Origin: Ariolimax columbianus
Taxonomy: Eukaryota; Mollusca; Gastropoda; Stylommatophora; Arionidae
Direction: 5' to 3'
Length of the DNA stretch: 64,000 bases
Assembly: GCA_036924085.1 (NCBI GenBank)
Contig: JAVGWX010000001.1
Coordinates: forward strand, 4,816,200 to 4,880,199
In this document: one piece after another, positions 2,801 through 64,000 of the stretch
Numbering within the stretch: the stretch's first letter is position 1
Layout: each line of letters starts with the position of its first letter
Program-made: the position numbers and the translations under genes
Notes under the pieces: model-generated
Database searches by the model: none
Seen by the model: only the letters and a program-made list of their open reading frames with translations
What the model was told of the DNA's origin: nothing

Positions 2801-3159
2801 ACATTTTTCAGCTATCCCATATCAGTTTGTGACCTACTTACTGAATTATCCTCGGATTGACTTTTTTTTGGGAACCATTACTGCTATTATTCTAATGCAT
2901 TTGCATGATGATAGTTTGGTTGGATATATTAGATGTATTGTTCTCACAATTCTGATGATTTACAATTTCTATTCGTAAAGTTTTACAGGTTTTTTAAAAA
3001 ATGTATACAATTTGTAGTTATTCAAACAAGTGATGTAACAATAACATACATCAATTTTCCTGAAGCATGTTCGAGATTATGCAGAGAAAGTTATTTTAGT
3101 TAAGATGTGTTGCTATCTGTGAGTGTGGTTATTCAGTTTTCATGGATTGAATTTTCCAG

Positions 3160-3304
3160 AATGTTGTTGACCCAGTTGGAGAGCTGTACACCAGCGATTG
3201 AGGAGAAAGTGAAAGAAAGTTCAGGGAAAGAAGACATTGGAAACAATGTTCTGTATGAACTCTATTACAGACCAGAGCAGGCACAGTTCAGCAGAAATGC
3301 CAGA
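3160..3304 (+). CDS. DCTN2: DCTN2 exon (first in window)
   Basis: The acceptor is ttttccag at 3152-3159 and the donor GTGAGT at 3305. The exon starts on the third base of a codon and ends in phase 0. It encodes MLLTQLESCTPAIEEKVKES... up to FSRNAR. It aligns with the human segment RLLLQLEATK through RPEQDKFSQAAK. Confidence 0.92.
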
Positions 3305-6300
3305 GTGAGTTGTGATATTTTGTCATTTGTTTGAGAACACAGAAATGAAGCCAACAGTTTACAGGATATCAAGTAAGAAATTTATCTTCTTCTTCAATTG
3401 TTCTCAATCTCTTGCTAACAAGCCCTGATAAGGGCTTTGCAAGTAACAGGATGTTGTTTGGTGAACGGAATGCGCCATGTTGTAGTTTACAGCTTGAGTG
3501 CAATATTTGCATCCTTCAGTCCGACACATCCAACTTCAGCAGGCATTATTTAGTACAGAGTTAGCCTTCTCTCTTCGATCCCTTCTTCTTAGCCAGTCTG
3601 CTCTGTTGTAGCCTGTTATCCTGGATCACCGCTTGGAGGTGTAGAAGGGCCTTGGCAGATCTGTTTGCTGGACCCTGATGCTAGCAGTCAGCTATGGGTC
3701 ACTGACCACTGCAGTTTATGCACTCTTCAGCATCTTGATACCAAGGGATTTATGAATACATTGATAGACAAGGTAAAAATAATTTTTTTAAATATTGTAA
3801 AAAGGCACAGAAACATGATAATTTTAGATAAATTCTAAAGGCAAGTGAACAAGGATGGAAATATACATAAGTAGATAAGCAATTGAATTGTAGTTGTTGA
3901 CCATCATAGCAAGAAACAGTCAATGTAGAACATCTATATCAGTGACCTTTGATGTTCATTTGTCTGTTCTATGTGATACTTTCTTCACTTATTATAGGGG
4001 AGGAAGGCTAACGTCTGGTCAGGCACAGCATACTGATCAGACATGTTAGCCAGGGTCAGGCAAAACAAACTGATTAAGACCCTCACCTCGGCGGAAATGG
4101 GCTGTTTTCATGGCAGCCTGGCTAACAAAGAGGGATCGACGTGATCCCCGTAGTAGTGAGTGACACACATATGAAGCCAAGCATAGCACAACTGCCTAAA
4201 AGACCGAGAGGTCCACCTTCATCAGCACGCTTGGGATGTGAGGAAAGCTACCGCAACCCGCCACTGAATGTCCTTTTCAGGGCACACAATAGAACCTACT
4301 CATTGTGGGCATTCGCAAACAACAACACTTATGATCTGTTAATTTGTATCTGCCCTTTCTACTTCCTTCTATCATGCTCTGCTCACTTTTGTTTTTGCTC
4401 TAGATTCATTGCAGACATGGATATCATTGCTTCTTGAGTAATATCTGTTAAGTGTTCCATTTTCAGATTGCTACTCTTGAAGAAAGGCTGGAAAGGCTTG
4501 AAAATGTTATTGGCAAAAACTTTGACAAGATGGTGGGTCTGACCTTTCTTCTGTCATTTCCTGTTTAGTATATTAACAATTAGTGATGAGTATGTTTTGG
4601 ACTCAGGTTGTGTATGCAGATTAATGCAGGGGCTACACAATCGGAGGAAAGTATGACAGAATACCAGCAATCCACCAAAAATGATTATTTTGAGAACTTG
4701 TGTTTTTCCTGTGGCAGCATTCGGCTGTGAAACATGGACAATTACCCAAACATCAAGGTATAGAATTGAGCCCTTCGAGTCTAAATGTTATAGAAAGTTT
4801 CTCAAAATACCATGGACTGAAAAAAAAAGAAGAATGCAGACATTCAACAAGAGTTGAGCATAGAGGAGAACTGGTTCATAAATTCTATAATGAACAGAAA
4901 ATTTAAATACTTTGGCCACATCAAAACATAAAACATTGCCTGTTTAGCTTTGAGTCTCCACAGCAACAGTTTTTGTTATGAGCTAAATATTCGTACCTTT
5001 TTGGTACCATTTTCTGACATTCATGGCAGTAGACAGATTATTTCCTCCACCATGGCAGTAGACAGATTATTTCCTCCACCATGGCAATACATAGATTATT
5101 TCCTCCACCATGGCAGTAGACAGATTATTTCCTCCACCATGGCAATACATAGATTATTTCCTCCACCATGGCAGTAGACAGATTATTTACTCCACCATGG
5201 CAGTAGACAGCTTATTTCCTCCACCATGGCAGTAGACAGCTTATTTCCTCCACCATGGCAGTAGACAGATTATTTCCTCCATCATGGTAGTAGACAGATT
5301 ATCTCCTCCACCATGTCAATAGGCAGATTATCTCCTCCACCATGGCAGTAGACAGATTATCTCATATACCATGTCAATAGGCAGATTATCTCCTCCACCA
5401 TGGTAGTAGACAGATTTTCTCATATACCATGTCAATAGGCAGATTATCTCCTCCACCATGATAGTAGACAGAATATCTTCTCCATCATGGCAGTAGACAG
5501 ATTATCTCCTCCACCATGATAGTAGACAGAATATCTTCTCCATCATGGCAGTAGACAGATTATCTCCTCCACCATGATAGTAGACAGAATATCTTCTCCA
5601 TCATGGCAGTAGACAGATTATCTCCTCCACCATGATAGTAGACAGAATATCTTCTCCATCATGGCAGTAGGCAGATTATCTCCTTCACCATGACATTAGA
5701 CAGATTATCTCCTCCTTCAACCATGGCAGTAGACAGATTATCTCCTCCACCATGTCAGTAAGCTGACTTCTAAGTGTGTGAGAGTAAGCTGGCCTCTAAA
5801 TGTATGAAAACAAAATTGCCTCTGAAACTTAGTCTTGCTTGAAATCACAGCTTGCACATTCCAACCAACATTTGAAATTTTGTTCCCACAGAACTTGCTG
5901 ACAACAGATGTCAAGAACAAGTCCCTCATTGTAAGTCAAGCTTCTCATGGTTTGTCATTTTCACATATCATATTTTGAGATCATATATTTTTTATAATTT
6001 TGAACATCATGAGTCTGAAGTCAGTGCAGGCTTAGCTGTTGCGTAGTACTTATTCTAAACAGTTACAACATGTATCTACACAACGACACGACTTCACACA
6101 GTAAACAACTTGTCATAACACATAACATTATCATTTATTAACATGCATATCAACAAAACCATATTAACAAAATACATCTAAACTAAATTATCATAATATA
6201 TATATTCATATATTGAAATGCATCAGAGGTTTTAAGCACTAGCTTTTGATATTTCCCCCCGAGCTACATAACCCAAGCTCTCGCTGCTGCATTCACTTTA

Positions 6301-9300
6301 TCTGCACATTCAACACGCACTCGCAAACTCGTCCTCACGATTGGATTACATATTCGGTCGTTCTGTGAATTCGCATTTAATCAGACCACCTTCAATCAGA
6401 TGATCTGTGCATTCTCATACAATCGGTTCACATATGTTCCCGATCTGTGCATTTATATGTAGTTAGATCACACCACTTATAGTCGGATCATGTACTCACT
6501 TGTGGTCACATACTCAGTCGATCTGTGCATACACATACAATCAGAACACACATCGTTCTCAAAGGGTCCTGCACATCTTTTGTGCGCCCTGAAAAGGACG
6601 TTAAGTGGCGGGTTGCAGTAGCTGTCCTCACATCTCAAGTGTGATGATGAAGGTGGACCGGGGTCCTCCAGGCAGTTGGGCTATGCTTTGCTTCATCTGT
6701 GTGTTGCTCGCGACTACAGGGATCACATTGATCCCTTACCCGTTAGCCAGGCTGCCATGAAAACAACCCGTTTCCAGAAAGGACTACGATGAAGACGAGC
6801 TGAGGGTCTTGTCCAGTACATTTTGCTTGACCCTGACTAACATGTCTGATTGCCTGACGAGACGTTAGTCTTCCTCCCCTATCATATTGTGTTAATATGA
6901 TGTCTTTTGATCCTGCAGGGTGCTGTTGCCACATTGAACTCCAAACTGTCCCTGCTGGATGCAGTGAGCACAGAAACTGTTGAAGCCCGACTGAACGTAG
7001 TCCTACAGAAAATGGAACAAGTTTCAGAGAAGGAGAAAGGGGCTCAAGTGGATCCAGACAATCAGAAAATGGTTGGACATTCACTTTTCTGGATTATTGT
7101 TATTGACTTAAAGTATATTTTTAGAAGAGAAATGAAGAAACCCAACAATGTCATGCATGACATTTTAGGCAGACAAAGAAAAAGTTTCAAGTTTTGACAG
7201 GGATGCCTCCAACCTCTCCCACATCATGAGTCTGTAACACCATACAGCAAGAGAAAGACAACAGAAAAAGATGAATTGGCGGTGTTGAATACAACACTAC
7301 AGAAGCATGGACTGAAAATAGCAGCTGTCTTTGAAATGATATGTGAAAGAAGATCACAACTCCCTATGATGTCTAATGATCTTTAGAGATGGTACATTAA
7401 ACAGAGATTGCAACTGCCTATGATGTCTGATGGTCCAAAGAGATGACGTGTGGATGAAGATCACAACTCCCCATGATGTCTGATGGTCCATAGAGATGAC
7501 GTGTGGATGAAGATCACAACTCCCCATGATGTCTGATGATCCATAGAGATGACGTGTGGATGAAGATCACAACTCCCCATGATGTCTGATGGTCCATAGA
7601 GATGACGTGTGGATGAAGATCACAACTCCCCATGATGTCTGATGATCCATAGAGATGACGTGTGGATGAAGATCACAACTCCCCATGATGTCTGATGGTC
7701 CATAGAGATGACGTGTGAAAGACGATCACAACTCCCCATGATGTCTGATGATCCATAGAGATGACGTGTGGATGAAGATCACAACTCCCCATGATGTCTG
7801 ATGGTCCATAGACATGATGTGTGAAAGACGATCACAACTCCCCATGATGTCTGATGATCCATAGAGATGACGTGTGAAAGACGATCACAACTCCCCATGA
7901 TGTCTGATGGTCCATAGAGATGACGTGTGGATGAAGATCACAACTCCCCATGATGTCTGATGATCCATAGAGATGACGTGTGAAAGAAGATCACAACTTC
8001 CCAGATGTCTGATGATCCATAGAGATGATGTGTGGATGAAGATCACAACTCCCCATGATGTCTGATGGTCCATAGACATGATGTGTGAAAGACGATCACA
8101 ACTCCCCATGATGTCTGATGATCCATAGAGATGACGTGTGGATGAAGATCACAACTCCCCATGATGTCTGATGGTCCATAGACATGATGTGTGAAAGACG
8201 ATCACAACTCCCCATGATGTCTGATGATCCATAGAGATGACGTGTGGATGAAGATCACAACTCCCCATGATGTCTGATGGTCCATAGACATGATGTGTGA
8301 AAGACGATCACAACTCCCCATGATGTCTGATGATCCATAGAGATGACGTGTGAAAGACGATCACAACTCCCCATGATGTCTGATGGTCCATAGAGATGAC
8401 GTGTGAAAGACGATCACAACTCCCCATGATGTCTGATGATCCATAGAGATGACGTGTGAAAGAAGATCACAACTCCCCATGATGTCTGATAATGAATGGT
8501 CTCAGAGATGACACATGAATTAAGGTTGAAACTCCTCATAACATCTGATGATATATGTGAACAGATGAAATGAGATTAAATTCATATACTTTCAGTGTGT
8601 TTACAGGGAGATCACAGGAAATGTTCAGGAGGAATTACTTAGAGATGAAATGCAATGTAAATCTCATTGCCATGAGTGGTCATTGTTACAAAAATGGAAA
8701 TATGTACATAATTTTGTAACATTATTTCACCCATATATTAAGGCTATTATCACCAAGAAAAAACCAAAAAAGACTATGGTCTGTGGGGGGGGGGGGGGGG
8801 AGAAAGAAGAAGAAGAGGAGGAGAAGAAGGAGATAAAAGAGGTATGCCTTCATCAATAGAATTCAGAAAGACCAAACCTTTAAAAGCAAACAAAATTAGG
8901 AGACAACACTACCACACAGGAAGTGTTATATAAATAGGTGGCACAACTCAAAAAGTTCTGTTTATTAGATCAGACCTGGAGAGGACTTAGAAAGTTCTGG
9001 TTAGTAGATCAGACCTGGAGAGGACTTAGAAAGTTCTGGTTAGTAGATCAGAACCTGGAGAGGACTTCTTCACCAGGAAGACATTCTTATCATTTGAATT
9101 GAGAGTTGGTCAAGTAGTAGATGAGACCTGGAGAAGAAGTCATCACGTTTTCCAAACTGCAGGCTGTAAATAGCCATACAGATCAGAATTATCCTACTAA
9201 ATGACAAATTGAAATAGTTAAACTTTACCTTCTCTACATTTTGAGTGTTAAACTTAGTTATGGGTTCAAGAATAAACATAAATATGTGCTATACCATCTC

Positions 9301-21027: not shown

Positions 21028-23325
21028 CAACAGATGGGTGTTAGGGGGATGACACCATGTCAGTGTGGGATTGTTGGATTGACTGGAGGGATGACACCAT
21101 GTCAGTGTGGGATTGTTGGATTGACTGGAGGGATGACACCATGTCAGTGTGGGATTGTTGGATTGACTGGAGGGATGACACCATGTCAGTGTGGGATTGT
21201 TGGATTGACTGCAGGGATGACACCATGTCAGTGTGGGATTGTTGGATTGACTGGAGGGATGACACCATGTCAGTGTGGGATTGTTGGATTGACTGGAGGG
21301 ATGACACCATGTCAGTGTGGGATTGTTGGATTGACTGCAGGGATGACACCATGTCAGTGTGGGATTGTTGGATTGACTGGAGGGATGACACCATGTCAGT
21401 GTGGGATTGTTGGATTGACTGGAGGGATGACACCATGTCAGTGTGGGATTGTTGGATTGACTGGAGGGATGACACCATGTCAGTGTGGGATTGTTGGATT
21501 GACTGGAGGGATGACACCATGTCAGTGTGGGATTGTTGGATTGACTGGAGGGATGACACCATGTCAGTGTGGGATTGTTGGATTGACTGGAGGGATGACA
21601 CCATGTCAGTGTGGGATTGTTGGATTGACTGGAGGGATGACACCATGTCAGTGTGGGATTGTTGGATTGACTGGAGGGATGACACCATGTCAGTGTGGGA
21701 TTGTTGGATTGACTGGAGGGATGACACCATGTCAGTGTGGGATTGTTGGATTGACTGCAGGGATGACACCATGTCAGTGTGGGATTGTTGGATTGACTGG
21801 AGGGATGACACCATGTCAGTGTGGGATTGTTGGTTTGACTGGAGGGATGACACCATGTCAGTGTGGGATTGTTGGATTGACTGGAGGGATGACACCATGT
21901 CAGTGTGGGATTGTTGGTTTGACTGGAGGGATGACACCATGTCAGTGTGGGATTGTTGGATTGACTGGAGGGATGACACCATGTCAGTGTGGGATTGTTG
22001 GATTGACTGCAGGGATGACACCATGTCAGTGTGGGATTGTTGGATTGACTGGAGGGATGACACCATGTCAGTGTGGGATTGTTGGTTTGACTGGAGGGAT
22101 GACACCATGTCAGTGTGGGATTGTTGGATTGACTGCAGGGATGACACCATGTCAGTGTGGGATTGTTGGATTGACTGGAGGGATGACACCATGTCAGTGT
22201 GGGATTGTTGGTTTGACTGGAGGGATGACACCATGTCAGTGTGGGATTGTTGGATTGACTGCAGGGATGACACCATGTCAGTGTGGGATTGTTGGATTGA
22301 CTGGAGGGATGACACCATGTCAGTGTGGGATTGTTGGTTTGACTGGAGGGATGACACCATGTCAGTGTGGGATTGTTGGATTGACTGCAGGGATGACACC
22401 ATGTCAGTGTGGGATTGTTGGATTGACTGGAGGGATGACACCATGTCAGTGTGGGATTGTTGGATTGACTGCAGGGATGACACCATGTCAGTGTGGGATT
22501 GTTGGATTGACTGGAGGGATGACACCATGTCAGTGTGGGATTGTTGGATTGACTGCAGGGATGACACCATGTCAGTGTGGGATTGTTGGATTGACTGGAG
22601 GGATGACACCATGTCAGTGTGGGATTGTTGGTTTGACTGGAGGGATGACACCATGTCAGTGTTGGATTGGCTGGAGGGATGACACCATGTCAGTGTGGGA
22701 TTGTTGGTTTGACTGGAGGGATGACACCATGTCAGTGTGGGATTGTTGGATTGACTGGAGGGATGACACCATGTCAGTGTGGGATTGTTGGATTGACTGC
22801 AGGGATGACACCATGTCAGTGTGGGATTGTTGGATTGACTGGAGGGATGACACCATGTCAGTGTGGGATTGTTGGTTTGACTGGAGGGATGACACCATGT
22901 CAGTGTGGGATTGTTGGATTGACTGCAGGGATGACACCATGTCAGTGTGGGATTGTTGGATTGACTGGAGGGATGACACCATGTCAGTGTGGGATTGTTG
23001 GTTTGACTGGAGGGATGACACCATGTCAGTGTGGGATTGTTGGATTGACTGCAGGGATGACACCATGTCAGTGTGGGATTGTTGGATTGACTGGAGGGAT
23101 GACACCATGTCAGTGTGGGATTGTTGGTTTGACTGGAGGGATGACACCATGTCAGTGTGGGATTGTTGGATTGACTGCAGGGATGACACCATGTCAGTGT
23201 GGGATTGTTGGATTGACTGGAGGGATGACACCATGTCAGTGTGGGATTGTTGGATTGACTGGAGGGATGACACCATGTCAGTGTGGGATTGTTGGATTGA
23301 CTGGAGGGATGGCACCTTGTGAGTG
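21028..23325. repeat. Minisatellite, 42-bp unit, ~54 copies, higher-order structure
   Basis: Unit 'gggatgacaccatgtcagtg' + 'tgggattgttggattgactg' + 'ga', 42 bp. Most copies differ only at two places: ggattg/ggtttg and ctggag/ctgcag. From about 22000 the three variants recur in order, making a 126-bp higher-order repeat. One unit near 22662 is short. The lack of stops leaves long frames open on both strands; these are by-products, not genes. The first unit, at 21028-21060, contains 'acagatgggtgt', the word of the 52-bp array. Confidence 0.96.
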
Positions 23326-23449
23326 TGGCATTGTTGGAGGGATGGCACCTAGTGAGTGTGGCATTGTTCAATTGACTGAAGGGATGGCACCATGGGAATG
23401 TGGCATTGTTGGAGGGAGGACACAGTGTGAGTGTGGGGTTGTTGGAGGG

Positions 23450-26414: not shown

Positions 26415-27134
26415 TCAATTCAGGTTATTCTCCATATTGAGAATGCGCCCAAGATAAATGTACTCGTTGACATCCTCTGATCGTACCTCACCAAGGAAGA
26501 CTGGATCACAAGTGGTGAAGTGATTGAGTAACACTTTGGTCTTCGAGACATTCATCTCCAGACCCGCTTTCTTGCCCTCTCCATCGAGTAGCTGCATCAT
26601 CTGGTTGGCTTCTGGTGCTGACTGTGATGGGCACGTCATCAGCAATTGAAGGTGATTAAAGCATCTGCTGCCAATAAGGATACCAAAGGTGTCCCAGTTG
26701 CATTGACTAATGACTGATTCCAAACATGCAGAGGAGAGGTTCGGTGAGATAGGATCGCCCTGACGGACCCCCTTTTGAATTTGTACCACAATTGGGCGTT
26801 GGAAGGGATGAAATGTGGTAGTGCAGTTCGTATAACTGTTGGCGAGAATTCTGATGTAACCAGGATCGACCCCTTGTTTCAACAGTGACCGCCAGACAAA
26901 ATGTGGTTCTACCGAATCAAAAGCCTTTTTATAGTCGATGATGGTGAATATAAAGGGTGTCTGTAACTCTCGGGCTGCCTCAATAAGCCGGCAACAGGTT
27001 GAAATATGGTCCGTTGTGCTGTACGGACGCCGAAAGCCTGCCTGTTCGACTGGTTGCTTTCGTTCGAGAATGGTGTGGCAAGGATGCATTTTGTAAACAG
27101 CTTGTAAGTGTCCGGGAGGAGAGTAACTGGGCAA
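26415..27134 (-). pseudogene. RTE-type reverse transcriptase core (broken ORF2 piece)
   Basis: 239 codons containing EQAGFRRPYSTTDHISTCCR, motif A IDYKKAFDSV and motif B QKGVRQGDPISPNLSSACLE. The usual YADD-type motif C is not intact: 'QLLMTCPSQSA' occupies that place, indicating a local frame error. It is preceded by a separate frame (26909-27427) with the upstream RT segment and followed by the C-terminal piece (26143-26418) with AETWTLTKSLENKLRD. Confidence 0.85.
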
Positions 27135-28116
27135 TAGTTTCCTAGATCGTCTTTGTCTCCCTTCTTGTGCGAGAGTGTTGTTCTCGAGTTGTGCCAGGCA
27201 GCAGGTGTTCCTCCAGAATGAAGATAGAGTGTAAAACGTTGGGCTATGGCTTGGTAAAGGGATAGACTGAAAGCCCGGATGACCTCCGCAGTGATGCCAT
27301 CTTCACCTGATGATATTCCAGATGGCATTGACTCGATAGAATGGCGAATTTCTGAGGGCAGGAAGTCTGGAAAAGAAGGTAAAGTGGATGGGAGGGCAAT
27401 TGGAGAGGGCTCTGACGATCTGAACATGTTGCTTTAGTATGTTTTCTTATTGACTCCAAGCCCAGCTTTCATGTGCGAGACCCATCGAAAGCTTTCAGAC
27501 ACAGAATGATTTGGCGGTGTTCGGCAAAGCTACGAGTAGCTAATTTGATGCTGCGCCGATATTCAGCAGCTTTCAGGAGACGTTCGCGGGCAAATTTTCA
27601 TGATCGTCTTTGAGTTTTTGGCGGCAGATCTTGCTGAGGGTAGTGACGGCTGTGTGGTTGTCTGGAGAACAAGCCATCGTACGCGACTTCGTCTAGTAAG
27701 GTTCGAGTGACAGGGAAAGTGCGATTTTTGGTGTGAGTGGGTGCTGGGAGACTGGCTCCCTTTAAAATAGATGTGATTGTTGCAATGAGATTTGCATAGT
27801 CAGCATCGATGTACGTGTCTATAGACGCTCCGAGTAGCTGCGAGGGGGAGGGGGGGGGGGGGGTTGATAAGCGTCTCTGGACCCTGATATGATCTCTGCT
27901 CCTGGAACTTGACAGGTTTTAGATCGAAGTGGAGACGGGCACGGAGAAGGCGATGGTCGCTTCCAGTGTAGAAGAAACCAACCACTGAGATATCAGTACC
28001 CGATCTTGATCGGACAAGACATTTCAAGACGATGAAATCCACTGGGTCCTATATGTGTGTACCTCTTGTGGATGGTCTTCTGGAAAAAGCTGTTGCAGTG
28101 AAACAGTTGTTTTGAT

Positions 28117-35308: not shown

Positions 35309-37403
35309 TCAGGTCAGGTCAGGTCATCGCGTAACCGGTGAGGTCGTTGGGGCACACATGAAGACATCCTCACAACTCCACGCCATCCCTCTCTGTCAGA
35401 TGCCGCTGCCTGTGACTCTTCTGGTCGGAGACTGGTCCATTCTTTTATGTTGTCCTCCCATCTCTTTTTGGGCCGGCCTCTACGTCGTCTGCCATGCACC
35501 TTCCCGTGGAGGATTGTGTTTGCAAGATTATTTGATCTAGATATGTGACCGTTGGAAGTGAGTTTCCTTCTTTTGACAGTTGCCAAGAGATCTTCGAAAG
35601 GTCCTATTGCCGTCGTAATTCTATTTCGGATTTTCTCGTTTGTAACTCGATCTTTGTACGTGACCTTTAAAAGTCTTCGGAAACATCTCATCTCTAAGGC
35701 CTGTATCCTTCGTTGAAGGTCAGCTGTGACTGTCCATGTCACACACACATAGAAATATATTGACAGGACCAGTGTACGCATTAATCTGATTTTCGTGCGT
35801 AGTGCTAACCGTTTATCTTGCCAGATTTTGTTAAGCCGTGCAAGCGCCGCTATTGTCTGTGCTATTCTGGCCAATACTTCACATTTTGATCCTTCATCAC
35901 TGACAATCGACCCGAGATATTTAAAACGGTCAACTACTTCGAGTTCTTGACCGTTTGCTTTTATCTTGCTGTTGAAGCCCGTAGCGTTGTTTGTCATTAG
36001 TTTTGTCTTTCCAGCGTTTATCTCCATACCATAGTCAAGAGCTTTCGTCGAGCATTCTGACCCATTCCTGGAGTTCTGCTTCTGAACCCGCCAACCCGTC
36101 GATATCATCTGCAAAACGAAGGTTACTAATCGTTCGGCCCCCTATCTTGACAGTACTAACTTGACCTCCAAGTGCCTCACTCATAATTCCTTCAAGGAAT
36201 ATATTGAAAAGAGTTGGAGAGAGTGTACACCCCTGTCTCACACCAACTGATGTGCGAAACCAGTCTCCTCGCCTCCCATTCACAAGAACTGCACTAGACG
36301 CCTTGTTATACAGGTGTTCAAGGACCGTTATAATATTTCCGTTGATATTATACATTCATGGTTGCCCAAAGCGCTTTATGCCATACCCTATCAAACGCCT
36401 CCTTAAAATCCACAAACACATGATACAGTGTTTGCTGCTGTTCTAGATATTTCTCGCTTAGCAGTCTTAAATTAAATATATGTTCTGTAGTGCTTCTTCT
36501 CTGTCTGAACCCTGCTTGCTCCTCGGCAATAACGTTCTCTGCTTGGGGTTTCAATCGGTCGAGGATTAGTCGAAGTATGACCTTGCTAGGGTGGCTAATG
36601 AGGCTTATTGTTATGTAATTTTGGCACAGCTTTAGGTTTCCAGACTTATGTAACGGTATAACTATAGATTTCGTCCATAAGTCCGGCCAGTTTCCTATCG
36701 CCCATATTTTGTTACAGATGTGTGTCAGGCCTTCCACCACTACCTCTCCACCTGCTTGTAAGAGCTCTGCTGGTATATTGTCCACGCCGGCCGCCTTCCC
36801 TCTTCTCAATGTCTTTACCGCTGCAATTACCTCTTCCTTCGTTATCAGTTGGTTATCCTCTATATTTGTTGGTGTTGGGGAGAATGTTTTCTCAGGTTTG
36901 TTTCGCCCTTCATAGTTATATAGCTCGGAACAGTACTCTGTCCATCTTGCTAGTACGTCATTTCCCTCAATGAGACACTTGCCGTTTTTATCCTGGATCA
37001 TAAAGTTCCTGCTTTGTCTTGGTGTTACCAGTTCTTTGACCACCTTGTATGCTCCTTTAGCATCATTTCTGTTTAGTCTCTCTTCGATGTTTGCGCATTG
37101 CTCACATATCCACGCTTCTTTCGCCTCTCTCATCTTTTGTTGTATGGCTTTCTTGATCTCTTTATAACTGCCGACCTCCTCCGGTGGGTGATTGTGTTTT
37201 TTCAGTGACCTTCTTTTATCACACAGATCTAGAATGTCTTTGGTCACCCATGGCTTCTTTTTTGTTTGGTGGCATCCCAGTATCTCTGTTGCAGTATCTA
37301 TGAGAGCTGCGTTAAGAGACTCTGTAACTATATCTGTATCCAGTTCCTCTCTGAGAGCCATCAGTGGCGCAAATCTCCCTTCTACCCTTGATTGAAACAC
37401 TTC
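35309..37403 (-). mobile_element. 5'-truncated LINE inserted in a 57-bp minisatellite
   Basis: The element lies between 8-bp duplications ggttatgg (35301-35308 and 37404-37411) that belong to the host array. Its 3' end, at left, is a (TGACC)n-type short tandem (tcaggtcaggtcaggtcatc on +). It lacks the endonuclease; the 5' truncation falls in the linker before the RT. Confidence 0.9.
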
Positions 37404-37415
37404 GGTTATGGACAA
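35314..37415 (-). pseudogene. LINE reverse transcriptase and C-terminal region, two frame breaks
   Basis: Three overlapping frames make the ORF2 product of the LINE at 35309-37403. 36348-37415 holds the linker and RT start (KTLRRGKAAGVDNIPAELLQ, EEQAGFRQRRSTTEHIF, motif A VFVDFKEAFDRVW). 36035-36355 holds motif B VGVRQGCTLSPTLFNIFLE and motif C LRFADDI. 35314-36114 holds 'EINAGKTKLM', 'FKYLGSIVSDEG' and the end 'GRPKKRWEDNIKEW'. The RT acid residues are present. Frame breaks lie near 36350 and 36075. The clade is RTE-like by its C-terminal segment, not certain. Confidence 0.85.
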
Positions 37416-55282: not shown

Positions 55283-55399
55283 GTAAGTCTGTCCGGCAGG
55301 TTCGTCTGTCTGTCACTAAATCTGTCTTTGTGTACCGTCTGTATGTGTGTCAATGCCACGTAGCAACTCTCCCCCCCCCCCCTTTCCCTTCCCATATCT

Positions 55400-56600
55400 C
55401 TTAGAATTCATGGAGGAGGTTACTAAAATCATAGATAAAGGGGAGCCAGTGGATGTTATTTATCTAGACTTTGCAAAGGCCTTTGATAGAGTACCTCATC
55501 AAAGATTATTTCGAAAGTTAAAATCACATGGAATAGGTGGCGAAGTTGCCAAATGGATTGAAAATTGGTTAACGGGAAGAAGGCAGTGGGTGGGCATAAA
55601 TAAGGAGTACTCTGAGTGGAGTGAAGTGAAAAGTGGTGTGCCACAGGGCTCGGTTTTGGGACCAATTTTGTTCTTGATATATATAAATGATTTGGACATT
55701 GATATGAGATCCATGATTGCAAAATTTGCTGATGACACAAAACTATGCAGTAGTGTCTCATCTAAAGCGGAAGTGGATATATTGATGTCGGATTTAGATA
55801 AAATTCGAGAATGGTCTGTAAGCTGGCAAATGGAGTTTAATGTAGATAAATGTACAGTCATCCACATGGGTAGATCCAATATGGAACATAATTACAGAAT
55901 GGGAGAAAACAATATTAGAAAGATAGATAAGGAAAGGGACCTAGGGGTTATAATAGATCATACTGGAAAGGTGAGTGAAAAAGTTAAGGTAGCAGTGAAA
56001 AAGGCAAATGCAATGTAAGGTATGATAAAAAGAAATATTAAACATAGGAGCAAGGAAGTGATCGTCAAACTGTATACAGCTTTAGTTAGACCTAGATTGG
56101 AGTACTGTGTACAGGTGTGGAGTCCTTATCATAGAGGGGACATAAACATGCTAGAAAGAATACAAAAAAGAGCGACAAAGATGATAGTGGGATTCCAGAA
56201 TTACAGTTATGAGGAACGACTCAGAAAAACCGGCCTACAGTGTCTCGAAGAGAGAAGAATTCGTGGTGACTTAATACAGGTTTATAAGATGATCAGAGGA
56301 ATCGATAAATTAGACTATAACAAGTTTTTTAAAATACAGCCACCTACAATAACACGAGGGCATAGCTACAAGCTGATTAAAGAGAGGTCCAGGTTAGATA
56401 TTAGGAAATATTTTTTTAGTCAGAGAGTGGTGTCTGCTTGGAATGCATTGCCAGGGGAGGTAGTGGAGGCAGGGACAGTTAATGCATTAAAGAATAAACT
56501 GGATGCGCATAGATTTTAGAGCAAGGTGATGTAAATGTAACTGGTTGTATACAGACTCTGCAGGGTCTTCTAAACCAGTATAAAGATGTTAAGTGTTAAG
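55400..56600 (+). mobile_element. CR1-like LINE, 5'-truncated, one in-frame stop
   Basis: It starts inside the RT domain. One frame runs from about 55405 to 56519 and is broken only by TAA at 56016-56018 (NAM*GMIKRN). RT motif A is DVIYLDFAKAFDRVPH, motif B SGVPQGSVLGPILFLIYIND, motif C AKFADDTKL. The C-terminal region has 'YTALVRPRLEYCVQVWSP' and 'RVVSAWNALPGEVVEAGTVN'. The 3' end carries a (TTAAG)-like short tandem (gttaagtgttaagttaag). It starts about 120 bp after the last GT10 exon found. The sister copy at 42040-43660 is far more decayed. Confidence 0.9.
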
Positions 56601-58470: not shown

Positions 58471-58496
58471 TACTTCTTCTTCTTCTGCGTACGCAG

Positions 58497-59306
58497 TCAG
58501 ACAGTAACCATTATTTTTTCGAAAAAAGCGGCGGTCATCCTGAGACTCTCGCCACTACCATAGAGCTTGTCTTGCAGTTCCACTGGCAATGGCCACATCT
58601 GCTCTCTCTGATCCTCGTATGTCGGGCAGTTCTGCAGCAGATGTTCAGTGGTCATTTTACCAGTACCGCACGGGCATTCGTCGGTACACCCTATCTTCAA
58701 TTTGTTGAATAGGTGGTACCTCAGTCTGTTGTGGCCAGTGCGAAGTCTGAAGACAACGACCTGCTCTCTTCGGTTCAACTGGTAATAGGCATCGTTTTTG
58801 GTGTAACCAGTATGTTCGGTTTCCCATTTGGTCATGTATTTGGCTTTGATAAGCCGTTTTGACTCTTCGTACGTCATACTGGTATCTGTTTGTGGTAGCC
58901 TTGCACCTTCTTTTACCAGTCTGTCTGCCTCCTCGTTGCCTTGGATGTTGCAGTGTGACGGAACCCACTGTACCACTACCCTTTTTGGTGCGGACTGCTG
59001 GCACAGTTTGCAGAGTGCTGCTCTTAAGTCATTAAGCTCAGTGTTTTTCTGGCTTTTTAGCGCTGTGACTACGGCGATAGCATCTGTCAGCAGGACTATA
59101 TGGCTCTCATTTTCACTGTGTGTTACCATTTCTTCCACTGCCGCCCTCAGTGCCTCTGCCTCCGCTCTGAAATTGCTTGTGTACTTACCAGTAGCGAATG
59201 ACAGTGTTATTTTTCTGCCATTTGGTAGGTTCAGGAATGCTCCTGCCCCTCCGTTCTGTGTAGTGTTTGTTACAGAACCGTCGGTGTATGCATGGGTCCA
59301 GTCCAT
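58497..59306 (-). CDS. I-group LINE ORF2, RNase H domain and tail
   Basis: 269 codons. RNase H type I motifs: HAYTDGSVTNTTQNGGAGAF (first Asp), NFRAEAEALRAAVEEM (Glu), VLLTDAIAVVTAL (second Asp; the usual TDS reads TDA), WVPSHCNIQGNEEADRLV (His and last Asp). A Cys/His tail follows, 'RTGHNRLRYHLF', 'CTDECPCGTGKMTTEHLLQ', typical of LINE C-termini. The real protein would be fused to RT; the Met here is incidental. Confidence 0.9.
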   Translation of the reverse strand: MDWTHAYTDGSVTNTTQNGGAGAFLNLPNGRKITLSFATGKYTSNFRAEAEALRAAVEEMVTHSENESHIVLLTDAIAVVTALKSQKNTELNDLRAALCKLCQQSAPKRVVVQWVPSHCNIQGNEEADRLVKEGARLPQTDTSMTYEESKRLIKAKYMTKWETEHTGYTKNDAYYQLNRREQVVVFRLRTGHNRLRYHLFNKLKIGCTDECPCGTGKMTTEHLLQNCPTYEDQREQMWPLPVELQDKLYGSGESLRMTAAFFEKIMVTV

Positions 59307-60301
59307 GCTTGGGTAGCTTTCGTTATGAAGCTTAGGGTAGTGTCTCTCCTTTCTTTTTCAGTCTGGCAGTTTTTGTTTGCAATACCTGGTATATTTTCTA
59401 CCACCTCTGGAAATATATCCTGCCTCCAAGTAGGTTTTCGTACAGTAGTGATGGGTTTTGGTGTTGTTAGTGCGTTTATGGGATCTTCGTGCATCTTTGC
59501 TTTGGCTATTTCTGCAAAGTTTCTCCGCTTTAGTTTCCCATTTCCCAGATTGTTTAGTCTCTGGTACATTGGATGGTCCGTCAGTCTTCGGAGTTTCTCT
59601 GACTGCAGCTGGGCTCTGCAGTCTCTTCTATCGGTCATGGATTGCAGTTTTGTAATCTTTTCAAGTTCTATAATTGGCGTTGACTTCATGCCACCTGTTA
59701 TAATTCTCATGGCTTGGTTTTGAAGTTTGTTAACTTTATCGAAGTTCGCCTTCGCTGCTGTTGTCCATGCCGCAATGCCATACTCGAGAACTGGTCTCAC
59801 TCTTCCAGTGTACAGTTTCTTTAGTATGCCTTCGTCTGCTCCCCAGCTTGTGCCAGCAAGTTTCCTCATGATCGCCATTCTTTCTCTGGCTTTCATTCGG
59901 TTTCTCTCAATCTGACTTTTCCATGTCATGCGCCGATCAAATGTGACTCCCAGATAGGTTGGGTTGTCGTTTGGCTGCAGGATTTTGCCATTTAGACTTA
60001 ATTTGGTACTTTGGGGTTTTAATGAGAGCGAGAATATTGTGCACGTGGTTTTCTCCTCGTTTATTTTGACCAGCCATGAGTTCGCCCACTCTTCCAGCGA
60101 TGTTAGGGCCGTCTGCATCCGATTTCTTGCTATGGTGAGATTCTTTTCAGAGGTCCACATAGCCAGATCGTCTGCAAACATTGAGCTATGGACTCTTCTT
60201 GGTATATTCTCTGTAATATCGTTTATATATACCAGGAAGAGTGTGGGTGACAATACTCCCCCTTGGGGTACTCCCTGCTCGAGTGTCACCTTTTTGCTCA
60301 T
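59270..60301 (-). CDS. I-group LINE ORF2, RT C-terminal half
   Basis: In phase with the frame above, six codons after the TGA. It contains motif B LEQGVPQGGVLSPTLFLVYI, motif C SSMFADDLAMW (catalytic DD present), thumb-like segments 'NPTYLGVTFDRRMTWKSQIE' and 'YTGRVRPVLEYGIAAWTTAA'. A frame change near 59307-59400 separates it from RNase H. Confidence 0.9.
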   Translation of the reverse strand: MSKKVTLEQGVPQGGVLSPTLFLVYINDITENIPRRVHSSMFADDLAMWTSEKNLTIARNRMQTALTSLEEWANSWLVKINEEKTTCTIFSLSLKPQSTKLSLNGKILQPNDNPTYLGVTFDRRMTWKSQIERNRMKARERMAIMRKLAGTSWGADEGILKKLYTGRVRPVLEYGIAAWTTAAKANFDKVNKLQNQAMRIITGGMKSTPIIELEKITKLQSMTDRRDCRAQLQSEKLRRLTDHPMYQRLNNLGNGKLKRRNFAEIAKAKMHEDPINALTTPKPITTVRKPTWRQDIFPEVVENIPGIANKNCQTEKERRDTTLSFITKATQAWTGPMHTPTVL

Positions 60302-60319
60302 CTGCCCTTGTACTTGGAC

Positions 60320-62404
60320 TCAGGCCGTTCTTTGTTTGAGGTAGTGGTTGATCCACTTGTACATCTTCCCACAGACATCACTTCTTCTTAGCTTGACTCT
60401 AAGTCCATCCTTCCAGACTTTGTCAAATGCCTTTTCCAGATCCACCCAAACAGCTACTGTGTGTTTCTGTGCCTGGTAGGCATCTTCTATCTCCTGGGCT
60501 ATGAGGATGACCTGGTCCTCAGTGGATCTGTGCTGTCTAAAGCCGGCTTGCTGTGGAATTAGTATTCGTTTTTCTTCCAGATGCCACATCAGTCTGGTGT
60601 TTATCATCCGTTCCATCAGCTTGCCGACACAGCTCAGTAGGCTTATGGGCCTGTATCCATTTGGATCTGTTTTGTCCTTTCCTGTTTTTGGTACTGGTAC
60701 CAGTATTGCATCTTTCCATGCCTGGGGTACAATTCCCCTTTTCCAGCTTTGGTTCAGGACTGATAGCAGTTTCTTCTTCGCTGTTTGGCCCAGCCCCATC
60801 AGCATTTCGTTTGTTATCCCGTCTTTTCCGGGAGATTTCCTTTTCTTTAGTGTTCTCATAGCCTCTTCCATTTCGCGCATTGTTAGTTTGGCCATCATGT
60901 GCTCTTCAGGAGCCGTATTTATGTTTTCGTGTCCCTTTAGCTCTTCGCTAATGTCTGTATGCTTATCTGCAGGGACCTCGATGTGGTTTGCTCTGGCATA
61001 GTGATCGACAAAGGCGTTTGCGGCTTTCTTACCTGTGATCAAGTTCTCGCCTTGCTTGATAGTAATTTGTTTATTTGACGGGGTTTCGTCATTCATGGCT
61101 CTGACTAGCTTCCATAGCTTGTTCCCTTCTTTGTCCAGGTTTAGACCTTCCGTTTTATTTTTCCAGCTTTCTCTTGCTGTTTGCTTGAGAGTGTGTTTGT
61201 ACTTCGCCGCGGCGGCTTTGAGGGCGATGTTTGCCTCCATGGATTTTTCTCGTTCTGCCATGTTCCTAGCATTTGTTACTGCATCTTCCACTTTCTGTAA
61301 CTCATCATTCCAGTAGGGCTTATAGTTTTTCCTAGCTCCTCTTGGGATGGTTTCAGTGGCGGCTTGCATTATTGCCTTGCTTAGGCTCTCTACCATGGGC
61401 TTCATTTTGGTGTTTCGTGTGTTGATGGTTTCACACAGCCCATCTGTCAGGATTGCAAATCTGTCCCAGTCGGCTCGTTTGTAATTCCAACGTGGGAGCG
61501 GTTTTGTTTTCTGTGGGCCTACTTTCATGTCAATGGTTAGCCTGATCGGCCTGTGGTCGCTACCTGCCAGTTGGTTTAGCACCTGGCGGTCTATTTTATA
61601 GTGTATGTCCTGTATGGAGAAGGCCAAATCTGGAGTCGAGGTGGTATGCCATGTTCTTGAATAGAAGCTAGGGCTATCCTCCGGCCTATTGATTAGGGAG
61701 AGATTTGCATCTATCTCCCAATCTTCCACTTCGTCACCTCCGCTGTCTGTGTCAGAGTATCCCCATCTCTCCGAGTGGCTGTTGAAATCTCCAACTACTA
61801 TGCAGTTGGAGTCTCTGACCTCCATACTCGAGAGCGATAGGTCTCTGTTTGGTGGTCCGTACAGATTGAAAATGCGGAGCTTCGTCTCTTGAGCCATTAT
61901 GTCAACTCCTACAATTTCTGCTTGTCCGGTGTGATTGACAGGTACCGCGCTACTCGGTATGCTGTTTCTGGTCAGTATCAGGACCCCTCCTTTGTGGCCT
62001 TCTCTATCTAGACGGAAGGTCTGGTATCCTCTGATTGAGAATTTATGGTTATTGTTGAGGTGCGTTTCCTGGATACATGCCACGTCAATCTTACCTTCAT
62101 GCAGGTGGTGTGTTAGGGGAAGTTTTTTGTTGATGACTCCCTCCGCATTCCACTGTAGTATTTTGAGGGTCTTGAGGTTTTGGCCAATAGACGTTGCCCC
62201 ATAGCCATGTGCCTTGACTCCACGACACATGGGTGGGTGACCACCAGTAGTCAAGGGTGGGCCCCTTCGAGGCGTGAGGCCCGGCACTATCGCTGCCTGG
62301 CGGGACTCCGCAGGATGAGCGCCATACGTTTTTCTAATAGGTTGTACTGCCATCATACTGTGATTTACGTTGCACTGTTTTGTTAGGCTTGCGGCCCCGT
62401 GCAT
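60320..62404 (-). CDS. I-group LINE ORF2, endonuclease and RT N-terminal half
   Basis: 694 codons. The first ~75 residues are unassigned. The endonuclease follows: LKILQWNAEGV (about 76-86), CIQETHLNN, 'GYQTFRLDREGHKGGVLIL', catalytic VVGDFNSHSERWGY (about 200) and GSDHRPI (about 290). The linker and RT start follow: 'LKKRKSPGKDGITNEMLM', 'GYRPISLLSCVGKLMERMIN', 'QQAGFRQHRSTEDQ', and motif A VWVDLEKAFDKVW near 675. The frame ends at TGA (LKQRTA*VQVQGQ), a single-base change away from the next open frame, which is in the same phase. The start used is simply the first in-frame Met. Confidence 0.9.
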   Translation of the reverse strand: MHGAASLTKQCNVNHSMMAVQPIRKTYGAHPAESRQAAIVPGLTPRRGPPLTTGGHPPMCRGVKAHGYGATSIGQNLKTLKILQWNAEGVINKKLPLTHHLHEGKIDVACIQETHLNNNHKFSIRGYQTFRLDREGHKGGVLILTRNSIPSSAVPVNHTGQAEIVGVDIMAQETKLRIFNLYGPPNRDLSLSSMEVRDSNCIVVGDFNSHSERWGYSDTDSGGDEVEDWEIDANLSLINRPEDSPSFYSRTWHTTSTPDLAFSIQDIHYKIDRQVLNQLAGSDHRPIRLTIDMKVGPQKTKPLPRWNYKRADWDRFAILTDGLCETINTRNTKMKPMVESLSKAIMQAATETIPRGARKNYKPYWNDELQKVEDAVTNARNMAEREKSMEANIALKAAAAKYKHTLKQTARESWKNKTEGLNLDKEGNKLWKLVRAMNDETPSNKQITIKQGENLITGKKAANAFVDHYARANHIEVPADKHTDISEELKGHENINTAPEEHMMAKLTMREMEEAMRTLKKRKSPGKDGITNEMLMGLGQTAKKKLLSVLNQSWKRGIVPQAWKDAILVPVPKTGKDKTDPNGYRPISLLSCVGKLMERMINTRLMWHLEEKRILIPQQAGFRQHRSTEDQVILIAQEIEDAYQAQKHTVAVWVDLEKAFDKVWKDGLRVKLRRSDVCGKMYKWINHYLKQRTA

Positions 62405-62485
62405 CCGATTTCAACAGGTGTTTCTGTAGGGATGCCCTCCTTAGCCTTTGGCTGTCCCCAGCCTATCTGCAAGGCAGCAGTTGTT
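62380..62485 (-). mobile_element. Core-bearing SINE fragment (family C or A like), minus
   Basis: 'ccccgtgcatccgatttcaa' matches the shared SINE core, and 'tagcctttggctgtccccag' resembles the family C body. It overlaps the 5' limit of the I-group frame, so the first residues of that frame may be SINE sequence. Confidence 0.55.
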
Positions 62486-62489
62486 TACG

Positions 62490-63070
62490 ATCAGAGTTTT
62501 CTCTCTTATGGAAGTTGTCTTACCAGACTATCGAGTCTTCACTACTCGTGTCTATAGGGTGCAATGATGATATGTGATGATATATGAGATGGACTGGTTT
62601 ACCCGGAAGAGAGGCAGTGCAGTGTGTCTGTGTCCCAGGATCGTCACGTCCTGCCAGGAACGTAGCATTTGCATGTGAGTGGGGTATCTCTTTTTCCCTT
62701 TATTTTCTTGGCTTCTATGCAGGGATGGTACGCCTAGCATTCCCCGCCACCTAGGGTGTTGACACAGTGGGGCAGGTGTGCAATGTCCGCTGGTCTGCAT
62801 CTCTTCTGCGTCCAGTATGATAGTTATATGGCTGATAACGTACAGAGGTAGATATCGTAGCCGGAGTGCATTCAGCCAGAGGACAAGCCTGGTAATGTCA
62901 CAGAGATGTTGTTCGCCTGGTGTGCGGACAACTCTCATGGTCAGTGGTTGAGTCTTGACAGTTCACAGTGAGGTGGCTGCTCTACTGTTTTCGACACCCC
63001 GACCAGGTACTAAGTCTTCGGTTGGTGTTTTCGCACCCCATCGCCGTTTAGGGTGAGTATCAAGCAGTTG
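62490..63070. other. Unannotated spacer between LINE and decayed rDNA
   Basis: No coding signal. A minus-strand frame at 62552-62938 is not recognised as a LINE ORF1. Confidence 0.4.
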
Positions 63071-63071
63071 T

Positions 63072-63148
63072 CCGCCCGCTTTGATTGGCGGGCGGCAAGG
63101 ACCTCTTTCTGTGGCTCTCTAACTGATAGGGCTGGGGCGCAAGCCCCA
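63072..63148. other. Two adjacent GC-rich perfect hairpins
   Basis: Hairpin 1: stem ccgcccgc/gcgggcgg (63072-63079, 63088-63095), 8-nt loop. Hairpin 2: stem ctggggc/gccccag (63131-63137, 63142-63148) closing a gcaa tetraloop. They sit just before the 28S-like segment. Confidence 0.75.
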
Positions 63149-63149
63149 G

Positions 63150-63420
63150 GTCCCGAGCATGTAGGAGCCTCCCATTGCAGTGGTGCTGAGATTTTGGGCG
63201 GGATTGCGGCTTACAAGGGTTCGGCCGTAATCCCCCACATGGTAGCCTCGCGCCCTTGGCTTATCAGCCTGGTACGTGAACCAAAGTGTCTGCGGCTTCT
63301 CTCGATTTGAGCTGGTTTTCCGTAGCAACGCCCTGTCATTTGTAGGGTAAAACTGACCTGTCTTCAGATGGTCTATTTCCAGCACCCGTTCACTATTTGG
63401 TCAGACGAATTTATTGAGGG
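63150..63420 (-). pseudogene. Degenerate 28S rRNA 3'-end pseudogene, minus
   Basis: The + strand reads as the complement of the 28S 3' region, in order: 'ttgggcgggatt', 'taatcccccacatggtagcc', 'cttggcttatcagcc', 'accaaagtgtctg', 'gtagggtaaaactgacctgt', 'ggtctatttccagcacccgt', 'cactattt'. Each matches, with changes, the conserved eukaryotic 28S order (TGGGCGGGATT, ATGGTAGCTTCGCCCCATTG, GTAGGGTAAAACTAACCTGT, GGTCTAAACCCAGCTCACGT). The eukaryotic form is clear from the GTAGGGTAAAACTAACC part. The divergence rules out a working gene. Confidence 0.82.
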
Positions 63421-64000
63421 CTTTTGTTTGTCAATGACCAGGTATTTGAAATCTGCGGTTTCTGCGGAGTTAAACACGATTTCCGTAGCGTTCTTTCATT
63501 TGAGTGTTTGAGAGCTGACTTGTCATCCGTGAGTCTAATACCAGCGTACGTTCATTATTAGACCTAAACGGCAGTGCTCTCGATTTGTCAGTTGTTCTAC
63601 AGTATTGGCGTGTTCAAATTAAGCCGCAGTTCCACACCTGGTGGTGCCCTTCCGTCAATTCCCTTAGCGAGACAATCAAGTTTCTTAGGGGGTAGTCCCA
63701 GTTTTTCGAGGGTCTAATTCCAGCACATGTTCTCTATTAGACCTCACGAAGGTGTACTTTTTGATAGTCATTCTGCAGTATTGGTATGTTTAGTTAACTT
63801 AGGTCTCAGGCTCCACTCCTGATAGTGCTCTTCCGTCAATTCCTTTATCAAACACTGGATGCTGACAAAACCGGGCCACAGGGGGCATAACCCCAGGTTT
63901 CTTGGGGGTCTAAATCCAGCACCAGTTCAATACTAGACCCCAGAAGAGTGGTCTCGGCATGTCAATCATTTCAGTGTTGGCCGTGTTGAGTCAAATTAAG
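63366..64000 (-). repeat. Chimeric 28S/18S-like degenerate tandem repeat
   Basis: Units of about 165-195 bp start at about 63366, 63531, 63711 and 63906. Each starts with a 28S-like piece (ggtctaattccagcacatgt, ctattagacc). Then comes an 18S-like piece in complement: 'gtcaatcatttcagtgt', 'ccgtgttgagtcaaattaag', 'gccgcagttccacacctggt', 'ggtgcccttccgtcaattcc'. The 18S-like piece is absent or too diverged in the first unit. The last unit runs off the window. The 28S-like piece forms a hairpin whose stem differs between copies. Confidence 0.78.

Follow-up and report, generated by a model that had tools for sequence, protein, structure and literature searches.

Why pieces resembling 18S and 28S rRNA should alternate in tandem at the end of a 64,000-nucleotide stretch of the Ariolimax columbianus genome (contig JAVGWX010000001.1, positions 4,816,200 to 4,880,199; referred to here as the window) is the question that this locus raises. 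The sequence-only reading of the window had placed the repeats at 63366-64000, in units of about 165-195 bp with a single orientation, and had taken them for a fusion of two rRNA pieces that was subsequently amplified.

Alternating 18S-like and 28S-like repeats at the end of the window

A repeat search located direct repeats starting at 63357, 63519, 63698, and 63894, a spacing of 162, 179, and 196 bp. Alternating 18S-like and 28S-like units occupy 63342-64000, and the repeats themselves could be assigned to 63342..63980 on the minus strand, based on this search and on shuffle tests. The 28S-like pieces were identified by comparison with a conserved eukaryotic 28S stretch, and lie at 63936-63907 (23/30 identical), 63740-63707 (28/34), 63561-63533 (23/29), and 63397-63342 (47/57). 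The 18S pieces were compared with the host 18S from rDNA unit L039, and are found at 63847-63787 (18S 1174-1234, 52/61 identical), 63666-63614 (18S 1174-1227, 50/54), and 64000-63981 (18S 1218-1237, 20/20). The last of these is the end of a host-like 18S block which, as alignment of the sequence past the window to the species' own 18S confirmed, runs on outside the window to the 18S 5' end and then into the external transcribed spacer (ETS). All seven pieces, four 28S-like and three 18S, lie on the minus strand, and the score of each was reached by none of 300 dinucleotide shuffles, with two of the 28S-like pieces beating the best shuffle narrowly (scores of 25 and 28 versus 23 and 23). The fourth repeat unit is without an 18S piece, as its 18S score was reached by 263 of 300 dinucleotide shuffles.

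The alternation, the approximate unit length, and the single orientation that had been read from the letters are borne out by these data. The 28S-like pieces number four and the 18S pieces three. Alignment did not reveal one collinear rRNA stretch; the 18S and 28S pieces are fused in tandem, and the earlier view that this is not a simply decayed rDNA unit stands. The repeats are indeed present in the proposed span, but its end coordinate is only the edge of the window, and the leader to which they belong continues outside.

Downstream of the repeats, at 62930..63332 on the minus strand, Rfam detects a diverged 28S rRNA 3' end (RF02543, LSU model 3007-3399 of 3401, 62.7 bits with a gathering threshold of 50). 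In the larger overlapping locus L009, the Rfam 18S (SSU) match reaches 1045 bits (model 1-1475 of 1831) and enters the repeats. For many 28S-like units, both in the window (63342-63980) and in relatives, folding into a GGGTCTAAT/ATTAGACCC hairpin is predicted.

The repeats lie in the 5' leader of a LINE

A search of the assembly for the chimeric unit, using 63289-64000 as query, returned 1,509 candidate places, and 40 out of 40 scored places matched at least 708 of the 712 bases with 96-100% identity, the 100% match being the window. We compared the window copy (L009) with 16 further fetched copies, giving a sample of 17. All 16 share with the window copy one common block, 96.7-99.0% identical over up to ~7 kb, which runs from the rRNA-like leader into an open reading frame and mostly extends to a GAAGAAG 3' end. 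The exceptions are L012 and L013, which end inside the reading frame, L019, which carries an internal deletion, and L026, which reaches the end of the fetched stretch. The tandem fusion of two rRNA pieces proposed earlier is real, but the repeats belong to the 5' leader of a LINE, and their genome-wide amplification is retrotransposition.

The full element, for which the longer copy L018 served as reference, is a ~7.4-kb non-LTR retrotransposon (7,406 bp), consisting of 5'ETS (about 610-660 nt), 18S nt 1-1237, the 18S/28S-like repeats, the diverged 28S 3' end, and a frame of 1,304 codons, in this order. In L018, comparison with rDNA places the 5'ETS at 1-654 and 18S nt 1-1237 at 655-1891; the alternating repeats and then the diverged 28S 3' end extend to about 2945, and the open-frame listing gives the long frame at 3464-7375, all in element sense. 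Of 11 full-length copies for which both ends could be inspected, 10 showed short target-site duplications on visual inspection, those of L017 and L022 being imperfect; the exception is L020. With these duplications, and with a single frame encoding endonuclease, reverse transcriptase, and RNase H, the element qualifies as an APE-type non-LTR retrotransposon. Counted from stop to stop, the frame has its full 1,304 codons open in 5 of 12 copies, while two others reach 1,299 and 1,252 codons.

In the window, the LINE copy occupies 58473..64000 on the minus strand, as do all features listed here. The whole copy spans 58473-65536 (C1:4874672-4881735), with 1,536 bp beyond the window end, and is 5'-truncated at approximately element position 339 of 7,406 (L018 numbering). 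The junction between the 18S block and the LINE, CTCAACACGG followed by CCAACACTGAAATG, is located at 63980..63981. A small open frame of 136 codons that starts in the 28S 3' end (62555..62962) is present in 11 of 12 copies, the exception being L022. The coding frame of the window copy is interrupted by one stop and one frame change. Its first part, ending in the stop, contains the endonuclease and the N-terminal half of the reverse transcriptase (60320..62404; PF03372, PF14529, PF00078), the second part contains the C-terminal half of the reverse transcriptase (59270..60301; PF00078), and the third part, in a frame that differs from that of the second, contains RNase H (58497..59306; PF00075). 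The 3' end of the LINE, with its GAAGAAGAAG tail, lies at 58473..58490. A tRNA search of the window found no tRNA. Elsewhere in the window, minisatellites and simple repeats are abundant between 156 and 57044 (85 Tandem Repeats Finder rows, some overlapping), several of them long and very uniform, such as that at 21046-23338 (period 42, 96% matches), and Pfam identified three more reverse-transcriptase remnants, on both strands, at 26415-27427, 35314-37415, and 55347-56519.

Proteins related to the LINE frame number 617 at E <= 0.001, and among the 120 of these that were listed, the animals named are Littorina saxatilis and Batillaria attramentaria, which, taken alone, would suggest a marine gastropod as the host. 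The relatives closest in identity, at 65-67%, are other entries of this list. The L018 frame has no close match in phages and no relative among viral contigs. The mean pairwise difference among 11 copies is 0.6-1.3%, depending on the region, and the LINE bodies contain 317 singleton versus 35 informative sites. Selection on the frame is apparent from these variants. Those in the frame that are shared between copies comprise 8 nonsynonymous and 19 synonymous changes, and the singletons comprise 138 nonsynonymous changes and 4 stops versus 90 synonymous changes, with a random expectation of 2.64 nonsynonymous per synonymous change under assumed transition weights. The picture is one of constrained source copies whose progeny would be mostly dead.

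Full-length copies share a 5' start and an 18S junction

Fourteen of the 17 fetched copies begin at one and the same base (ATCTGGGG...), two of them with a substitution nearby, while truncation affects the other three, namely the window copy, L014, and L026. Element base 1 corresponds to position 570 of rDNA unit L039 and lies 638 nt upstream of the 18S, so that the ETS of this sampled unit is 638 nt long. The rDNA of L039 upstream of this base reads ...GGAATGTATATT, and the common start directly follows GTATATT. Judged from this position, element base 1 is probably the Pol I start site.

The starting 20-mer is found at 3,697 genome places, and GTATATT together with the first 14 bases at 122. 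Small unplaced contigs (C50 to C251) account for 96 of the first 100 listed of these 122 promoter-side places, which are mostly ~12.2-12.3 kb or multiples of this distance apart there, and chromosome-scale contigs account for the other 4. Two of these four, selected for holding bases upstream of +1, were fetched and start at -7 (L045) and -17 (L046) relative to +1, indicating that a few copies extend slightly beyond +1.

The junction between 18S and LINE is common to 15 aligned copies, and the exact 24-mer spanning it occurs at 4,534 genome places, that of the window included, with none for the reversed control. The first 100 junctions listed all lie on C1. The exact start 20-mer precedes 45 of them, at a distance of 1,842-1,886 nt in 37 cases, and of 75 starts listed for the same C1 stretch, 45 are followed by the exact junction. 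The junctions and starts left without a partner would belong to truncated or mutated copies, or to copies with a different junction. The copies are scattered over chromosomes at unrelated sites, which is incompatible with strict rDNA target specificity.

A copy in an rDNA array and the proposed mode of dispersal

Array contig C67 contains a copy, L067, in which 104 nt of rDNA before +1, including GTATATT, are followed by ETS of the local array type, by 18S 1-1237 with 0 of 1,237 mismatches, and then by the LINE, the sequence being followed to element position 6613. L067 is, like an R element, a sense copy inside an rRNA gene, subject to a possible misassembly, since a collapsed array could have been misjoined to a dispersed copy via the shared leader. 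The LINE body of L067 is 96.6-97.3% identical to those of the dispersed copies, which differ mutually by ~1%. As this divergence exceeds that among the dispersed copies, L067 is a sibling and not their direct parent. Compared to the majority of 11 dispersed copies, its frame shows 35 synonymous and 13 nonsynonymous differences, far from the 2.64 nonsynonymous per synonymous change expected at random, and its 1,048 codons contain neither an indel nor a stop. The frame is thus open and constrained as far as it was followed. The promoter intervals flanking L067 are off by -966 and +6,404, and their sum amounts to two units plus 5,438, which is near one LINE body. In a second C67 unit, L040, the 18S passes nt 1237 without a LINE. 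On array contig C86, LINE sequence in the direction of transcription is present in those parts of 95001-97500 that were read, and the promoter interval around it exceeds two units by 7,372 bp. Pattern matching for the LINE 3' end beside 18S 1240+ gave 0 matches, which is a weak test as there are only 8 array 18S 3' ends versus at least 96 promoters. The rDNA units are spaced 12,150 bp apart on C67 and C190, and ~12,283 bp on C50, C86, and C100. Several rDNA intervals (C50, C67, C86, C190) contain ~3-9 kb of extra DNA, suggesting insertions, and two of these intervals, one on C67 and one on C86, include LINE sequence.

Together with the comparison of the leader with host rDNA described below, the sequences make it likely that the family is a LINE resident in 18S genes that is transcribed by Pol I and disperses whole co-transcripts over the genome. 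Source copies, for which such residents are the candidates, would sit in 18S genes at nt 1237, in sense to transcription. Pol I would initiate at the normal rDNA start and produce one RNA consisting of 5'ETS, 18S 1-1237, and the LINE, and the LINE protein would copy this entire RNA by target-primed reverse transcription into sites genome-wide. Since the whole co-transcript from +1 would be copied, full-length progeny would start at the Pol I +1 and carry no promoter, and exchange within the rDNA would keep the leader fresh. The repeats and the diverged 28S 3' end are probably older rRNA pieces absorbed into the LINE leader and partly duplicated in tandem, the repeats going back to an earlier 18S/28S fusion. 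More tentatively, and with some doubt on our side, the LINE might use the rRNA promoter while its 1.85-kb leader serves as a homology arm that returns the cDNA or the copy to the 18S by annealing or recombination, in which case the leader would stay host-identical and the burst would be coupled to nucleolar transcription.

Other rDNA-LINE chimeras and template switching

The 18S 3' end is present at 32 places, 8 on array contigs and 24 elsewhere. Of ten fetched loci with an 18S 3' end (L029-L038), nine are rDNA joined to the LINE or a relative, with differing junctions, and in the tenth, L029, the rDNA similarity covers 41 bp only. With nine of ten fetched non-array 18S 3' ends being LINE fusions, 18S copy counts in the assembly may mislead. 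The junction types include ITS1 joined to the LINE, and ITS1 leading back to 18S and then to the LINE, and some junctions, judged from a reading of their letters, presumably start from 5.8S or 28S. Three of four chimeras with other junctions have their 5' end at +1 (L042, L043, and L044), and the fourth at +9 (L041). Across the ETS and the first part of the 18S, L042 is 97% identical to rDNA, L043 86%, and L044 83%. In the older relatives L030, L033, and L036, the rDNA part is 92-95% identical and the LINE part 80-84%, and two of them start at +1 (L044 for L033, and L043 for L036). As the jump points of the chimeras vary and the far end mostly agrees, this far end is probably the end of the pre-rRNA. 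It seems from these junctions that the LINE enzyme also jumps from LINE RNA to ordinary pre-rRNA, and such jumping would fit an RNP working near nascent rRNA.

The varied junctions at these nine loci are what would be expected if the whole family arose by recurrent template switching, with a LINE RNA that starts elsewhere and contains only short 18S-like relics, and an enzyme that jumps by homology onto pre-rRNA and copies to its 5' end, so that every insertion would acquire a new 18S and ETS. Such switching would also account for the host-like 18S and for the shuffled ETS alleles described below. However, we consider it unlikely as the general explanation, because the base-exact junction between 18S and LINE is identical at 4,534 places, the dispersed copies have ETS insertions in common, as in one lineage, and the assembly contains a resident copy that includes the promoter side of the rDNA.

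Similarity of the leader to host rDNA

Across the 1,237 nt of 18S, no difference from the host is fixed among 12 copies, each of which has only 2-9 differences. Every copy covering the relevant ETS positions shares four fixed changes there, and every copy except L027 shares four more; six of these eight recur in the chimeras L041 or L042. The other two are a 6-nt ETS insertion, present in all 15 dispersed copies, and a 3-nt insertion, present in all but L027, and neither is found in the two sampled rDNA units or in L041-L044. The two rDNA units also differ in a 24-nt ETS stretch, which C222 has and C67 lacks. In the LINE copies, this stretch is present in 6, absent in 7, and represented by 19 of 24 nt in L025, while the window copy is truncated inside it. 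When this indel was placed on a tree of the LINE bodies, 5 changes were required, compared to a shuffled mean of 5.1, and a single change sufficed in 0% of 200 bootstrap trees. This scattering suggests that the ETS moves independently of the LINE, although none of the inner branches of the LINE-body tree is strongly supported, which leaves a single origin of the indel conceivable.

In relatives with a LINE part of 80-84% identity, the 28S-like block scores 91.5 bits (L033), 89.4 bits (L037, a shorter match), and 78.5 bits (L030), and in closer copies 67.9 bits (L035) and 62.7 bits (window). The 28S-like block seems to decay as the LINE part does, whereas the 18S block does not.

These data also bear on the view that the family is autonomous and dispersed, its ETS-18S leader having been captured once and now functioning like any other 5' UTR, with a promoter of its own inside it. 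The open frame in 5 of 12 copies and the two shared ETS insertions that are absent from the sampled rDNA agree with it, and a recent capture would likewise leave the 18S unchanged. Nevertheless, it appears quite improbable, since the 18S is without fixed differences over 1,237 nt whereas the ETS has several, the rDNA ETS indel is reshuffled among the copies, and the older relatives L030, L033, and L036 are better conserved in their rDNA part than in their LINE part, two of them starting at +1. Finally, decayed rDNA or a local chimeric satellite that is independent of the adjoining LINE has the weak 28S similarity (62.7 bits) in its favor, but was rejected as scarcely credible, given the near-complete matches at 40 of 40 scored places from the 1,509-place search, the 16 other copies that continue into the same LINE, and the 4,534 junctions.

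If the LINE indeed resides in 18S genes and disperses as a Pol I co-transcript, genomic sequence would suffice to locate Pol I initiation with single-base precision, and the copies would serve as a natural archive of pre-rRNA alleles. Barcoding based on 18S and estimates of rDNA copy number could then be misled. The frame would presumably be translated from an uncapped Pol I transcript with a 3.4-kb leader, and both the translation and the retrotransposition of such a transcript would be directly testable.

Comparison with known systems

Among the papers listed by a search of the open-access literature, none showed a LINE with an ETS-18S leader. R1 and R7 are LINEs that insert in rDNA, and known rDNA LINEs mostly remain there, while most LINEs use Pol II. 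The family described here appears to combine Pol I drive with genome-wide spread to thousands of copies. It resembles the R elements (R1, R2, R7, R8, R9) in its residence in rRNA genes, its sense orientation, and, as the common start suggests, probably also in Pol I co-transcription, which is expected of R elements. It differs from them in having thousands of copies outside the rDNA, the full-length ones of which carry ETS-18S.

The tandem ~200 bp monomers in the 5' UTR of mouse L1 are comparable in being tandem units in a LINE 5' UTR, but the units found here consist of 18S-like and 28S-like pieces and are located downstream of an rRNA leader. As described in PMC5035012, R8 lies in the 18S of hydra, and in some R2 families an HDV-like ribozyme processes the 5' end. 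Unlike those R2 families, the copies described here keep their leader up to +1, and no Rfam ribozyme match was found at E <= 5 in the window (60001-64000) or at E <= 10 in L009 (5500-8500), thresholds at which divergent ribozymes could escape.

LINE-1/rRNA chimeras have been described at 18 loci, with 28S fragments of 269 nt median length, in a study whose main text does not use the term 18S (PMC13174262). As in our family, the LINE 5' end is fused to rRNA in these chimeras, mostly in sense (PMC13174262). In contrast to them, one junction recurs here at 4,534 places, and full-length copies extend from the probable Pol I +1. The template-switch type, in which fusions are sporadic, single-copy, and variable in their junctions, does not describe the family, since its main junction is constant, although nine of the ten fetched loci with an 18S 3' end do vary. 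Finally, rRNA-derived SINEs, which are 5S- or 28S-derived (PMC13174262), also carry rRNA sequence within a retroelement, whereas the present element is a LINE that has a frame of its own behind a long pre-rRNA leader.
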